Virus record (IMG/VR): IMGVR_UViG_3300035698_027840
Location: 1-22,731 of that record
Source of the DNA: a virus
Direction: 5' to 3' (one strand)
Length of the DNA: 22,731 nt
Below are positions 2,404-21,668 of this stretch, one piece after another. Below the pieces are notes generated by a model. That model was not told the origin of the DNA. It made no database searches and saw only the letters and a program-made list of their open reading frames with translations. Numbering within the stretch: position 1 is the first letter of the stretch; each line of letters begins with the position of its first letter. The translations under genes and the position numbers were made by a program.

Positions 2404-4029
2404 TTATGCAGCAGTCGTAAGAGCTGTCCATGCAGTGGATCCATCTGTATTAATATAGCACCTGTCGTTTGTAGTGGTCCCATCAGTTCTGAGAAACAAC
2501 GATCCTTTAGGTGCTGTGACAGATGCATGAGGGGTTCCTGCGCCATCAATAACTTTACATCCTGAACCAGCAATAAACCCTTTTGTAGCTGTAGCTGCTT
2601 CAACATCGCCAGCCGTACTTGTTACGTTCCCAGTGGCTGCTGTAACGCCTCCTGTAGCGCTTACTCCGCCTCCAGCAACGGTCAAACCTGTGCCTGCATC
2701 AGGAGCTGCTATTGTAACTGCACCAGCTGTGGAAATATCCATTCTTTTAAGTGCTGCATCGGTTGTATCTTTATGTGTATAGAATTCCAGGTTTGCTGGA
2801 ATTCTATCTGTAGCTATAGTTCCAGAAGAAACAGACTTTAGGTACGCACCTGCAATACTACTTGTTCCATCGTCACCATAAAAACCAAAGACACCAAGAG
2901 TATCACCAGTAGTTATCACACCATCTGCTCTGTTTTTAACTACACCAATATATGCACCAGATGCATCAGCTGATTCACTAATGGCGTCAAAGTCCCCAAT
3001 AACTTGAGAGTCCCCAGTTACATTAGTTCCGCCACCATCAACGGTCAAACCTGTGCCTGCATCTGGATCTGCTATTGTAACTTCACCAGTTGTGGAAATG
3101 TCCATTCTTTTAAGTGCAACATCAGTTGTATCTTTATGTGTGTAGAATTCCAGGTTTGCTGGAATTCTGTCTGTAGCTATAGTTCCAGAAGAAACAGACT
3201 GTATATACGCACCTGCAACACCACTTGTTCCATCGTCACCATAAAAAACAAAGGCACCAAGAGTATCACCAGTAGTTATCACACCTTCTGCTCTGTTTTT
3301 AACTACACCAATATATGCACCAACTGCATCAGCTGATTGACTAATAGCGTCAAATCCTCCAATAACAGTAGAATCTCCAGTTACAGCAGTTCCGCCTAAT
3401 GTAACGATGACTCCAGTACCCGCGGTTACTGTTGTAGCTGCGCTTACTGCTCCAGCTGTTGCAACCAGATCTCCAGCATCGGCTGTTATGTTGCCGAGCG
3501 TGCTAGAGATTCCTGTACCACTGGTAATTGTTGTACCTGCCGTTACTGCAAGGGCTGCGCTAACTAAACCAGCAGATGAAACAATATTACCGAGCGTTGC
3601 TGTGATGTTGCCAGCACTTGCCAAAAGTCCACCAGTCGTGGCAATGAACCCAGTACCAGCGGTACAAGTAGTTCCAGAACCAAGAGTTGTACCTGCCGTT
3701 ACTGCAAGGGCTGCACTTACTGATCCGGCCGATGAGGTTATATTTCCAAGCGTTGCGATTATGTTGCCAGCACTTGCCGTGATATTGCCGGGAGAAATAG
3801 TTAATGTAGTAAACACACCCGCTCCACCACCGCAGCCCATCCACAATGCATTATTGGCAAGAATTCTAGTAAGAATATAGACGTCGTCGTTTGGTTGATC
3901 TATCCAAACAGTTCCAATCTCATATTTGTCAGAAGTAACAGGTGCTCTTTGAGCAACAACCGGTGCTGGAAAAAGATCAATTAAGCCTTGCCCCACACCA
4001 TAAGACATATACTTTTTTCTGGATGCCAT
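2404..4029 (-). CDS. Repetitive tail-fibre protein
   Basis: Predicted 541 aa. The start is the ATG at 4029, with AAAGGA 7 nt upstream; an upstream in-frame TTG would lie between that site and the ATG. The N-terminal 60 residues (LIDLFPAPVV ... KYEIGTVWIDQPNDDVYIL) look like a virion-attachment part. Residues about 75-210 are short Ala/Gly/Thr/Ser repeats (GNITATLGNIVSSAG, AALAVTAGTT), suggesting a beta-helical shaft. Residues about 213-454 are two copies of a 121-residue unit containing YIGVVKNRA, FYGDDGTS and IPANLEFYTHKDTTD. The C-terminus (SLFLRTDGTTTNDRCYINTD) resembles the end of many fibre and pectin-lyase-like phage proteins. Likely a receptor-contacting fibre or appendage. It is the first gene of this minus-strand group, beyond the plus-strand cassette. 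Confidence 0.82.
   Translation of the reverse strand: MASRKKYMSYGVGQGLIDLFPAPVVAQRAPVTSDKYEIGTVWIDQPNDDVYILTRILANNALWMGCGGGAGVFTTLTISPGNITASAGNIIATLGNITSSAGSVSAALAVTAGTTLGSGTTCTAGTGFIATTGGLLASAGNITATLGNIVSSAGLVSAALAVTAGTTITSGTGISSTLGNITADAGDLVATAGAVSAATTVTAGTGVIVTLGGTAVTGDSTVIGGFDAISQSADAVGAYIGVVKNRAEGVITTGDTLGAFVFYGDDGTSGVAGAYIQSVSSGTIATDRIPANLEFYTHKDTTDVALKRMDISTTGEVTIADPDAGTGLTVDGGGTNVTGDSQVIGDFDAISESADASGAYIGVVKNRADGVITTGDTLGVFGFYGDDGTSSIAGAYLKSVSSGTIATDRIPANLEFYTHKDTTDAALKRMDISTAGAVTIAAPDAGTGLTVAGGGVSATGGVTAATGNVTSTAGDVEAATATKGFIAGSGCKVIDGAGTPHASVTAPKGSLFLRTDGTTTNDRCYINTDGSTAWTALTTAA
2668..3393 (-). repeat. Tandem duplication, two 363-bp units, inside the tail-fibre gene
   Basis: Units at about 2668-3030 and 3031-3393 match at a constant offset of 363 bp (for example AACGGTCAAACCTGTGCC at 2677 and again at 3040), exactly 121 codons. 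Long stretches are identical, including the segments coding for IPANLEFYTHKDTTD and ALKRMDIS, so the duplication is recent or kept similar by gene conversion. Confidence 0.92.
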
Positions 4030-4122
4030 CTCCAATTCCTTTCTTGTATAAATAAAATATAGAACAACTACTTAATAACTTGATATAAACATAAAACAAT
4101 ATCTACTTATTTAAAATATAAC

Positions 4123-13508: not shown

Positions 13509-14764
13509 TTAACTTAATGTTGCTTTAAGATTGATTATCCATAAGTCATTAGTAATACGAGGAACTTCTGCAAACTTATAACCAACAGAACAATTTAATG
13601 CTAAAGGCCCATCGTAAATTGGTGGACGATAAATAAATTGACTGGAAAACGAGTCCTGATCGATAGATGCGTAAGCTTCCATACCTACACAGAAAATGTT
13701 GTAAACATTTACACCCAAGTTGGATGCATTTGCTGATACCGAACCTGCTGAAGAAAGCAAGAAGCGAAGATTACCAATTGCACCCCATTCAGATCTTAAG
13801 CCTTCTTTTGGATCTGGATATTGATTCTTATGAACAAATCCAGCAACTGCATCTAAATTTCCTGAGAGTTGAGTCGAAGCTAATGCAAAGTAAGAATCAC
13901 GAATCGGAGCTGTTCCAAATTTATTTTCGCCTACTATATTATCCATAACCGTATAAGCGTCGTTGTTTAACAATGCTCTTACAACTCCATCAATGTCTGC
14001 TCGTGTTACTTCGGTTGGATTGTCTCCGTTAACACCTGCAGTACAATTAATAAGTGATGCTGTTGCTGCCAACATATCTCTTGTTAATTGATCTTCTGTC
14101 TGACGAAGAGAAACACCCAATCGCTTGGCTGCTTCGTTCAAAACTGGATCTTGTGCCTGTAAGGTTCGATCTGTTACTTGTATTGACTACTTTGTGTTTG
14201 CAAAGTAGCGGTGAGTCTTGTTATTCCTCACTCCCAATATCTCTATTGGGGCCCGACTGTCGCTTCACCATTAGGTGTCCACTCGCCTCAGTCTGTCAGC
14301 GTGATATTTATTTCATTTTTAAATATCTTCGCCCCTGTCACCCTCGACTCTACGTTAGGGCTTCCAAGTCAATCAGAGCGGATTTAAAGCAGGCAATTAA
14401 CCTACAATCACAAGAAATTTCAAAGAACTATTTTTATCTACCTGCTCGTTAATTTGTATATAGGTCACTCACAAATTAACTATTACGGCACCTATGCTTT
14501 ACCGTAAAAACTCATCTTTGCATCAATATCAACAGCACTAAGAGTTTGTGCTGGTGGAGTTACTCCTGTATTCCCCAATGGAACCATTGCAGTATTAAGA
14601 GCGTTATATCTCCTCATACGCAGTGTAGTACCACCGTTACGTGGCATTTGTTTTTTCATTGAAGGAATTTTATGAATTAACGAAGGAGTTGGTACAGATA
14701 AAAGTTTATAACTAAAACTTTGCTGAACCGGCGCTGGAAGTAAGGTTGTTGTTGTTATTGCCAT
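13509..14764 (-). CDS. Major capsid protein, N4-gp56 family, in two exons split by a group I intron
   Basis: Exon 1 is 14764-14501 (88 codons; ATG with AAGGA 6 nt upstream). Exon 2 is 14186-13509 (225 codons plus stop). Joined, they give 313 aa with an unbroken frame through ...AKMSFYG|SIQVTDRTLQAQ DPVLNE.... The downstream part is clearly the N4-gp56 family of HK97-fold capsid proteins: LRQTEDQLTRDMLAATAS, INCTAGVNGDNPTEVTRADI, FGTAPIRDSYFALA, QFIYRPPIYDGPLALNCSVG and KFAEVPRITNDLWI. This protein forms the icosahedral shell around the scaffold encoded just upstream. Without splicing, translation stops two codons into the intron (KA, stop), giving a useless 90-aa product. A short product starting from the TTG at 14141 would lack the N-terminus. 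Exon 1 is Pro/Thr-rich, as expected for the family's N-terminal arm. Confidence 0.92.
14187..14500 (-). ncRNA. Group I self-splicing intron in the major capsid gene
   Basis: On the minus strand the exon end TTACGGT pairs with intron GCCGTAA; the final T faces G, giving the U-G pair that marks a group I 5' splice site (P1). P2 is GTTAATTTGT with ACAAATTAAC. P3 is TTGCCT with AGGCGA. P4 is CTCTG with CAGGG, P5 TTGACT with AGTCGA, and P6 GCG with CGC plus an 8-bp extension. P7 is ACAGACTG with CAGTCGG, close to the Tetrahymena guanosine-binding site. P8 is CACC with GGTG. P9, P9.1 and P9.2 follow, with a GAGA tetraloop in P9. The 3' end at G14187 is set by reading frame plus the terminal-G rule. 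It contains no open frame, so any homing enzyme acts in trans. P10 is weak, which leaves the exact 3' site less certain. Confidence 0.92.
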
Positions 14765-19473: not shown

Positions 19474-19806
19474 CTACCAATATCTGAAGCTTACCAAACT
19501 ACGATAGCACTCACTGCAGCAAGATCTAGGCTTTAAAGAAGTAAAAGCAGATCTTGTTTTTACCAACTCCTTACCACATCTACACCTACATAAAAACTCT
19601 AAAGCGTTGATGCTATCTTTCTTTTTAATGATTTTAACTACCGTCCATTGCCCTCGCTTATCACCTACCTCAATTGAACTAAGGTGTTGTCTTAAATCAA
19701 AAAGCTCACTCCCTCTTTCTCCATATTTTTCAATCGCATCTCCCAGCGTAGTCCCACGCGGATATATCCCAAGTTGTCTAAATATTTCAATACGTTTTTT
19801 TTCCAT
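19474..19806 (-). CDS. Zinc-ribbon protein, copy A
   Basis: Predicted 110 aa. The N-terminal half is helical (EIFRQLGIYPRGTTLGDAIE). The C-terminal half is a four-cysteine zinc ribbon: DKRGQWTVVKIIKKK, then CRCRCGKELVKTRSAFTSLK, then SCCSECYRS. This layout (G.W.V, CxCG, then CxxC) is common in small phage proteins and in the N-terminal part of some homing endonucleases. The gene at 21363-21668 has the same layout, so the two probably share ancestry and now flank the large terminase gene. No nuclease core is present, so it is probably a DNA- or RNA-binding protein or a relic of a mobile endonuclease. Confidence 0.7.
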   Translation of the reverse strand: MEKKRIEIFRQLGIYPRGTTLGDAIEKYGERGSELFDLRQHLSSIEVGDKRGQWTVVKIIKKKDSINALEFLCRCRCGKELVKTRSAFTSLKPRSCCSECYRSLVSFRYW

Positions 19807-19999: not shown

Positions 20000-21362
20000 T
20001 TAATACTTAGAAAAGCCATCATTAAAAAAACCAGGCAACTGTTGATTTCCAGACATAGCCTCTCTGTAGTTTTTATCTATGTCTTCAGCAGAAAGACCAT
20101 CTCTGGTTTTAGGCAAGGATAAACAAAGATACCTAAAGCTATCAGCAAAATTACTTGAAGAATCGTGAAGTGGTTTGCCACGATAAATCTTTCTCTTCGA
20201 GTCATACTCCTGTCTATAACTTTCTATAGCCTTTAAAAGAGGCTGAGCTTTTGTTTCATCAAGCCAAACCTTAGCAAATGTTGACCGACAAGCCTCTATC
20301 CCATCCTCAAGTGATAATTTAGGGGCAATAAGAAACCTTATTCCAAGTTGTCTGGCCTTTTCCAGCCGAGAAACCCCTGTACCCAATTCACGCACAGCAA
20401 TGTCGTGAGGAGCAAAATGCTTACCATAAGTATAATCAAGAGAACTAAGATACTTAATATAAAACTCAAGGCCCTGTGAAGTATTTTCATAACAATCAAT
20501 TATTCGTACCGTCGTTCCTATTGTTTGAAAGAATATGATCGATGTTGCATCCCTCATGCCGAGATCCCATGATGTGTGGACCTTAAATGCTGGCTCCCAT
20601 GGCACTGTAGTTATCTGACCGTTCAACCTCATTTTGTCCAAATAGCGTGAATAATAACTACCTTCTATACCAAGGTCAAACGACGTGAAATATTCCTGCA
20701 TGATAAGATCTTCAGACATCAGTCCCTCAGCCTTCTCTTTCTCTATCTGATGACGAGATATATGGCAGGTCTCATCGAGCGTTAGCTTATAACAAAACCA
20801 ATCAGGAGAGTTTTGTGCAATTTGATAAAGCTCATAAAGATGGTTTTGACGGCCACGTGGAGTAGACTCGAAAATCGCCCACCCACCGTTAGCCACCAGA
20901 ATTGGCCTTAAAAACTGGTAAGCCTTGGGATCTTGAATCGCATACTCTGAAAATACACAACCTCTTGGGTTAGTTCCGCAAATGCTATCAATATTTTCAC
21001 TTCCTATCAGCTGAATAAGCGATCCATTGGATAAGAAGACTTTCATTTCCTGAGAATTGGAAGAACTCACTAAAGTTGGAGGAATGAAATCCCTAAAACG
21101 CATGCCCTCATTTGTTATGGAATCCCATATAACCTTCTTAGCCTGAGAATAGGTTGGAAAGATGTAGTAATAGACTCCTACCTTGCGTAGAGCCTGGCGT
21201 ATTAATAGGTTCCAACAAACAATGTCTTTACCCAGCGCGTCGAGGCCAGATGGCCAGGACGCGCTTATATCCTTTATTTTCTATAGCATCAAAGATAGGT
21301 AACTGATATGTCCTGGGAACAAATTTGTTTAAGTATATTTTATTTTCTATGTCGGTTGCCAT
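20000..21362 (-). CDS. terL: Large terminase subunit (packaging ATPase and nuclease), read in two frames
   Basis: The ATG at 21362 directly follows the stop of the zinc-ribbon gene, with AGGGAAGG upstream. Frame 1 runs 44 codons to ...LAIWPRRAG and stops at TAA 21230-21228. Skipping one T (21230) continues as KDIVCWNLLIRQALRKVG... to the stop at 20000, giving 453 aa. The joined sequence RRAGKD is the Walker A motif of the packaging ATPase. GCVFSEYA (about residues 134-141) is Walker B with the catalytic Glu. The C-terminal half has HTSWDLGMRDATSIIFF and NFADSFRYL, with acidic residues of the RNase-H-like nuclease that cuts concatemers. No alternative start exists in the second frame before the ATG at 21103, which lies beyond the Walker A motif. 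The break is therefore a programmed +1 frameshift, a sequencing error or a disabling mutation. Confidence 0.9.
21227..21233 (-). other. terL: Frameshift site in terL (GGG TAA A)
   Basis: On the minus strand the zero-frame codons are GCT GGG TAA AGA. Moving one base forward at GGG gives GGT AAA GAC, which keeps glycine in the P site (GGG to GGT) and meets Lys-Asp of Walker A. A stop codon after a slippery codon is the layout of known +1 sites such as that of RF2, although no Shine-Dalgarno-like stimulator was seen just upstream. Confidence 0.6.
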
Positions 21363-21668
21363 TTAACAGCCTTCCCTAAAAAAAGGTCGTCTTTTATTCT
21401 TCTTACGAGCTAGTCGAAACGCTTTATCGATACAATATGAACACATAAGGTTTTTATTCTGTCTAATTTTTGAATATTTAAGAATGGCTTCTGTACCACA
21501 AGAGCATCTTGCCCTATACACCTTCCTCCCATTATCATCCCTATTCCTTTCAATTATTGTCCATTCCCCAATAACATCTCCAGGATAAAAATCAAAGGGG
21601 ATGCGTTTCTTAGCGTTACCTCTTTCTACACGCAAAACCTCCGAATCTAAAACAGTTACTCTTTTCAT
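21363..21668 (-). CDS. Zinc-ribbon protein, copy B
   Basis: Predicted 101 aa. The ATG overlaps a stop codon upstream (TAATG at 21670-21666), and its own TAA abuts the large terminase start. A basic N-terminus (MKRVTVLDSEVLRVERGNAK) precedes a zinc ribbon: GDVIGEWTIIERNRDDN, then ARCSCGTEAILKYSKIRQN, then MCSYCIDKAF, with a Lys/Arg-rich end (RLARKKNKRRPF). The cysteine spacing (CxCG, then CxxC) and the G.WTxI core match copy A at 19474-19806. The directly preceding stop belongs to a leftover small-terminase tail, so this gene may have arrived with a rearrangement between terS and terL. Function unknown; nucleic-acid binding is likely. Confidence 0.72.
   Translation of the reverse strand: MKRVTVLDSEVLRVERGNAKKRIPFDFYPGDVIGEWTIIERNRDDNGRKVYRARCSCGTEAILKYSKIRQNKNLMCSYCIDKAFRLARKKNKRRPFFREGC

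Follow-up and report, generated by a model that had tools for sequence, protein, structure and literature searches.

A putative non-autonomous group I mini-intron beside a complete group I intron in a phage major capsid gene

An interrupted capsid gene and its micro-exon

How can a phage make its major capsid protein from a gene whose reading frame is broken? The window, the whole 22,731 nt stretch of viral DNA analysed here, raises this question on its minus strand, where the ORFs on either side of an insert, taken together, hit a phage family of major head proteins (phrog_1357, E 3e-27; Pfam Phage_capsid_4). The capsid identity had been recognized in an earlier note on this DNA, which attributed the interruption to one group I intron of 314 nt without an internal gene, ending at position 14187. 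A gene-less group I intron does split the capsid gene, but not as a single 314 nt unit, because positions 14440–14465 are exon. The intron drawn in that note fused two introns and a micro-exon, and joined P1 of a mini-intron to the core of its neighbour.

Capsid exon 1 (14501–14764, 264 nt) can be aligned to intronless relatives as far as residue 88 and ends in TTT TAC GGT (F Y G), the 5′ splice site of the mini-intron. Mini-intron A (14466–14500) consists of 35 nt, AAAGCATAGGTGCCGTAATAGTTAATTTGTGAGTG, without a catalytic core, and is missing from intronless relatives, in which FYG is followed directly by TY. The micro-exon (14440–14465) comprises 26 nt, ACCTATATACAAATTAACGAGCAGGT, reading T Y I Q I N E Q plus GT, and corresponds to residues 89–97 of the intronless relatives (n=80, 76–82 % identity), which carry FYG-TY[VI]Q[IL]NEQV-TLQ or a sequence near it. 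It is followed by group I intron B (14167–14439, 273 nt, without an ORF, 3′ end AAGTAACAGATCG) and by capsid exon 2 (13509–14166, 658 nt with the stop counted in). Removal of intron B creates the junction GT/A ACC, read as E Q V T L Q.

The exons of 264, 26 and 658 nt add up to 948 nt, or 315 amino acids plus a stop, a length equal to that of the intronless relatives. The product lacking both introns is identical to the intronless relative L002 at 263 of 315 positions (83 %), without a gap. That removing both introns restores the full-length capsid exactly counts in favour of the two-intron layout, and the predicted exon/intron boundaries are supported by this comparison. All sequences compared are metagenomic contigs with no cultured relative among them, and the closest named phages share <30 % identity. 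The multiples of three that the earlier note had seen in its exon lengths and offered as evidence of frame are coincidental. The alignment to capsid relatives that it had proposed as a check spoke against it, as the claimed splice leaves the protein two residues short and TYIQINEQV lies inside the supposed intron (14465–14440). The two-intron layout predicts the spliced junctions GGU-ACCUAU between exon 1 and the micro-exon (TTTTACGGT^ACCTATATACAAATT) and GAGCAGGU-AACCUU between the micro-exon and exon 2 (GAGCAGGT^AACCTTACAG), as well as a capsid peptide specific to the micro-exon reading, TYIQINEQVTLQ.

The pattern of variation within the micro-exon marks it as protein-coding. Not one in-frame stop occurs among 49 distinct micro-exons of class B, in which, as in the window, a core-bearing intron begins 26 exon nt after the mini-intron, and pairwise differences number 3932 at third positions versus 2210 and 1208 elsewhere. 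The codons GAG CAG are fixed in class B, where they form part of the P1 helix of intron B, and appear as the synonymous variants GAA/GAG and CAA/CAG in two further classes, C and D. Part of the micro-exon (GARCARGT) was preset by the search patterns, so the NEQV end weighs less in this comparison.

Intron B, its group I core and its surroundings

The catalytic core of intron B (14255–14385, minus strand) contains P3 (14375–14380/14279–14284), P4–P6, P7 (14290–14293/14255–14258) and P8 (14274–14277/14266–14269). A scan of viral contigs for the P3–P4 motif returned at least 120 stretches, mostly capsid genes of the same phage group, and the core structure, P3–P9 with its P3/P7 pseudoknot, was counted on 30 aligned compact introns. 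In this alignment, 87.8 % of cells were paired versus 69 % in shuffles, and 38 of 52 pairs varied on both sides. Pairing reached 99.4 % in P3, 97.5 % in P7, 97.4 % in P8 and 94.8 % in P9, with two-sided changes in four of the six P3 pairs and also in P8. The earlier note had thus correctly read an interrupted minus-strand capsid gene whose insert carries a group I core, together with the P3–P8 and P7 pairings.

Intron B has the conserved P3–P8 and the P3/P7 pseudoknot of a group I core, and its ends have the form of group I splice sites. P1B (14388–14447), read directly, pairs exon GAGCAGGU (14440–14447) with the guide GCCUGCU (14388–14394) and places a U.G pair at the splice site; the last intron nucleotide is G (...CAGAUCG). 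The P1B pattern GAGCAGGT...GCCTGCTNTAAATC was found again in 87 viral contig stretches. A P10B may lie 4 nt away from P1B in the window, a tentative assignment. The 3′ tail (14167–14186) reads TCAATACAAGTAACAGATCG, of which AGTAACAG is near-invariant in the 30 introns, at many insertion sites; in L082 the same tail runs directly into a clean exon junction, VNG/DNP. The boundary at 14187 had consequently been set 20 nt too early, the next 20 nt being this conserved intron tail. Compared in this way, intron B and its aligned kin are classified as group I introns.

The check with the Rfam group I model suggested in the earlier note came out negative: RF00028 gave no match to the window even at E ≤10. 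Five family loci with the same core were likewise all missed at the gathering score. A match to Rfam is a screen for group I introns and not their defining feature. Given the covariation of the core and the failure of the model on five relatives as well, the miss probably reflects a limit of model coverage rather than a structural failure.

LAGLIDADG-like endonuclease genes lie in related capsid introns, downstream of mini-introns in loci such as L083 and L354, on the opposite strand in 37 of the 41 with a recognizable motif. Since relatives carry such genes inside the same intron, the copy of intron B in the window has most likely lost its own endonuclease gene. The earlier alternatives, an old and immobile intron or one mobilized by an HNH enzyme, found no support. 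A free-standing HNH endonuclease gene is present between structural genes (1734–2339; HNH_3, E 5e-10), and nothing we found links it to the capsid intron.

Of 19 complete capsid genes in a portal-based sample, drawn without regard to introns, 10 held at least one, and the capsid introns of this phage group occupy dozens of positions. Up to four to five group I introns occur in a single capsid gene (L103, L111, L124, L253, L292, L306 and others). Elsewhere in the window, the frame of the large terminase gene is broken in the Walker A region (21231–21280; ...WPRRAG, then a frame change), possibly by an assembly error; relatives read through, and 47 matches span the break. The terminase gene is flanked by two small ORFs (19474–19806 and 21363–21668) sharing a cysteine-rich domain that resembles part of an HNH family (phrog_374). 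A predicted structural protein with long internal repeats is encoded at 2404–4035 (FDAIS-SADA-GAYIGVVKNRA-GVITTGDTLG twice).

Mini-intron A, its guide helices and its tether

Mini-introns were gathered by scans anchored on intron B and, independently, by a scan that used only the insert as its anchor. Together with the window copy, 81 distinct mini-introns of 28–75 nt were found at residue 88 of the capsid gene. The length of 63 of the 81 is not divisible by three, and straight read-through is possible in one. All 81 are preceded by GGU, which was part of the search pattern. Every capsid mini-intron ends in G; one scan filter had demanded this nucleotide, which is circular, and the result was the same when the scan was repeated with the terminal G left free.

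P1A (14483–14507) pairs exon UUACGGU (14501–14507) with the guide GCCGUAA (14483–14489) and appears in the MFE fold. The P1 with a U-G pair at 14501/14500 described earlier is therefore real: the helix has 6–9 bp and the splice-site U.G is found in 81/81. Two-sided changes occur at exon position −4 (CG 76, UA 5) and exon position −5 (AU 76, UA 5). P10A (14460–14495) pairs the guide AUAGGU (14490–14495) with ACCUAU of the micro-exon (14460–14465). Its third pair is Watson–Crick in all 81 mini-introns and takes all four types (CG 51, UA 15, AU 9, GC 6), and the mean P10 length of 4.7 compares with 3.6 when partners are swapped, the maximum across 2000 swaps being 3.9. P10 pairs changed at least 20 times on the exon-1 tree, which is itself poorly supported, and fully supported independent pairs number only two. 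The insert-anchored scan demanded TACGGT...GTGCCGTA, which inflates P1 and the first P10 pair in that subset, but not the third P10 pair or the tether described below. Mini-intron A thus displays a P1 with U.G, a P10 and a terminal G, and this comparison identifies P1A and P10A as the pair of guide helices that a substrate of group I splicing carries. No P3–P8 core of their own was found in the mini-introns, which at 28–75 nt contain no core motif and are filled for the most part with P1, P10 and the tether. Mini-intron A appears not to be an autonomous group I intron, and to work with group I splice signals.

The same arrangement recurs in two further contexts. A second site (IDW), one codon earlier and in another lineage, was represented by 13 cases with exon GAUUGGU and guide GCCAAUC. 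A third, at residue 81 and in a third lineage, was seen in L105, L187 and L188, with exon AUGUGGAU or AUGUCGAU and guides GUCCACAU or GUCGACAU. When small insertions were sought automatically at other places in the capsid gene, by a procedure blind to mini-introns beside very short exons, only residues 81 and 88 came up. Bacterial genome contigs yielded mostly chance matches, and only L390, from a Methylococcaceae MAG contig, passed the filters as a capsid case, a weak hint at the host group. The mini-intron of L085 holds an SSLSINDLV-like coding sequence similar to the exon sequence YVQINEQV, and may perhaps have arisen through exon duplication. In L135, a full core-bearing group I intron occupies the mini-intron site after FYG; it is possible that such an intron was the ancestor from which the core was lost.

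A third pairing links the mini-intron to the exon beside its neighbour. The P2-like tether (14448–14480) is formed by GUUAAUUUGU of the mini-intron (14471–14480) and ACAAAUUAAC of the micro-exon (14448–14457), and adjoins P1B directly. A core-bearing intron lies downstream of the mini-intron in 81/81, at 26, 48–50, 86 or 96 exon nt, and the insert-anchored scan had set no requirement for such an intron. The tether partner shifts with it. In class B (57 cases, core intron at 26 exon nt), the partner is the NEQ codons just upstream of the core intron; in class C (18 cases, 48–50 nt, QDP-GT), it is the QNQ codons just upstream; and in class D (five cases, 86 nt, GVS-CT), it is CGUCUUGG just upstream. 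The single case at 96 nt is L138. Class means of the tether score were 8.3–10.9 with the class's own partner versus about 4–5 with the partners of other classes, and a score of at least 7 was reached by 85 % of inserts versus 4 % of shuffled inserts. The gap between tether and P1 of the core intron was 0 nt in 55 of 70 cases, −1 in 11 and +1 in four. Weaker tethers mostly show, by eye, a single bulge or mismatch.

No mini-intron without a downstream core was found where enough sequence was available; the contig of L331 breaks off too soon for a core to be seen. In seven cases, intron B was present and the mini-intron absent. As the core occurs without the insert and the insert never without the core, the insert appears to depend on the core and not the reverse. 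A comparison of L065 with L337 points to joint acquisition of the mini-intron, the exon and the core intron: the exon that lies between the mini-intron and intron C and the matching tract of L065 are about nine substitutions apart, all of them synonymous as we read them, while the flanking exons are 96.8–100 % identical. The possibility that L065 is a spliced cDNA of L337 was rejected, as L065 has GGC instead of GGT as the codon where the mini-intron sits; it represents an intronless allele or a transcript thereof.

Candidate mechanism, rival readings and known systems

Comparison thus supports P1A, P10A, the tether, the core and the need of the mini-intron for a nearby core. On this basis we consider it probable that mini-intron A is a non-autonomous group I intron spliced by the core of its neighbour, so that one ribozyme would serve two introns 26 nt apart. 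With slightly less confidence, it is likely that the mini-introns form a natural class of coreless group I introns, spliced in cis by a neighbouring core, base pairs with the exon in between serving as their tether to it. In the proposed pathway, intron B would itself be a complete group I intron, equipped with P1, P10 and core, and mini-intron A would contribute substrate elements only, namely a P1 with U.G, a P10 and a terminal G. The 3′ half of the mini-intron and the micro-exon would, as the tether, hold P1A beside the P3–P9 core of intron B. A guanosine bound in P7 of B would cut behind GGU, and the freed end of exon 1 would attack behind the terminal G of A with P10A as guide, so that a 35 nt piece is released and exon 1 becomes ligated to the micro-exon. 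Intron B would then self-splice via P1B, restoring the reading frame of 315 amino acids. We infer that splicing occurs, that the core of B catalyses the removal of A, and that A leaves first, since the tether needs B still in place. Against this model, P1B sits where P1A must approach the core, and the docking of P1A is putative.

The simplest rival is the single 314 nt intron, running from GGU to 14187 and yielding FYG-SIQVTDR-TLQ. It is in frame, P1A and the core would form one canonical-looking P1-P2-P3...P9 chain, and L083 and L084 permit similar SxxVTDR readings. Yet its new exon is the near-invariant intron tail known from many other insertion sites, a segment that is not open in relatives such as L086, and the protein would lose nine conserved residues that are intact in the micro-exon (313 instead of 315 amino acids). 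Nor does it account for P10A, the codon conservation of the micro-exon, or classes C and D, and we regard it as very improbable. The SxxVTDR segment as an exonized intron tail is refuted by relatives with TYVQLNEQV inside the supposed intron, and a single intron from GGU to 14167 was rejected as out of frame. Alternatively, ribosomes could hop the 35 nt insert, as at T4 gene 60, where a short coding gap is bypassed during translation. The likeness is a short gap in a phage coding sequence, in the same size range, with a hairpin at the take-off codon and an invariant GGU ahead of the gap, the GGU being in our search pattern. Translational bypass requires a landing codon identical to the take-off codon, however, and the last triplet of the inserts is AAG, TTG, ATG, TAG and others, never GGN. 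Hopping also leaves the P10 covariation, the terminal G, the tether and the constant core unexplained. With splice-guide covariation in place of a matching landing codon, we consider bypass excluded for practical purposes.

Two further explanations accept RNA splicing and differ in the catalyst; each is unlikely. The mini-intron could be an autonomous minimal ribozyme, like the 63–75 nt fungal rDNA introns claimed to self-splice, which have likewise been reduced to P1, P10, a short P7 and a pairing between mid-intron and 3′ exon. The capsid mini-introns are mostly 28–41 nt, in which P1, P10 and the tether leave no room for a guanosine site; a complete core adjoins every case, and autonomy is doubtful because the tether moves with that core between sites. 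Removal in trans, whether excised copies of intron B or different introns supply the core, would be compatible with the location of P1A and P10A in the substrate, which any core could in principle accept, and engineered group I ribozymes do excise internal segments in trans. A tether to the exon beside a cis core would then be pointless, and a mini-intron without a nearby core was never found. Splicing in cis by the core of intron B is the reading we prefer.

To our knowledge, group I introns are regarded as autonomous, each with its own active site, and in the literature covered, which is incomplete, no natural group I intron is described as spliced by the core of another. Core loss is a step that accounts of how spliceosomal introns originated usually assume. 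If the model is true, nature offers introns cut down to their splice signals that borrow the active site of a neighbour, a group I counterpart of the step toward dependence on a shared external splicing machine. The idea is testable with short RNAs. It would also mean that capsid genes of metagenomic phages can hold 26 nt exons and 28 nt introns that are missed by annotation pipelines and Rfam.

Capsid introns have a precedent in mycobacteriophage LittleE, whose major capsid gene contains a probable group I intron, shown by RT-PCR to splice (PMC3706429). As in the relatives studied here, that intron has an endonuclease frame on the opposite strand; it differs in being a single full intron, with no mini-intron or micro-exon reported (PMC3706429). 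The small degenerate introns of fungal rDNA (PaSSU, Phialophora, 63–75 nt) have been described as functional ribozymes themselves (PMC3160393). In structure they come nearest to the mini-introns, having P1 with U.G, P10 and a pairing between mid-intron and 3′ exon without P3–P6 or P8, but they lie in rRNA genes, end in U rather than G, have a claimed P7 and were explained with no neighbouring core invoked (PMC3160393). The mini-introns, by comparison, lack the PaSSU-type combination of internal P7 and terminal U: they end in G, and no P7 was recognized by eye. Borrowing of a core is a conjectural candidate explanation for the puzzling fungal rDNA introns of 56–81 nt. The closest parallel in reaction comes from engineered trans excision-splicing ribozymes and group I spliceozymes, which excise an internal segment and join its flanks (PMC4094466 and references therein). 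Removal of a separate internal segment by a group I core is the reaction proposed here; these ribozymes are engineered, act in trans and carry the guide on the ribozyme, whereas the capsid system would be natural, act in cis and carry the guide on the excised segment (PMC4094466).
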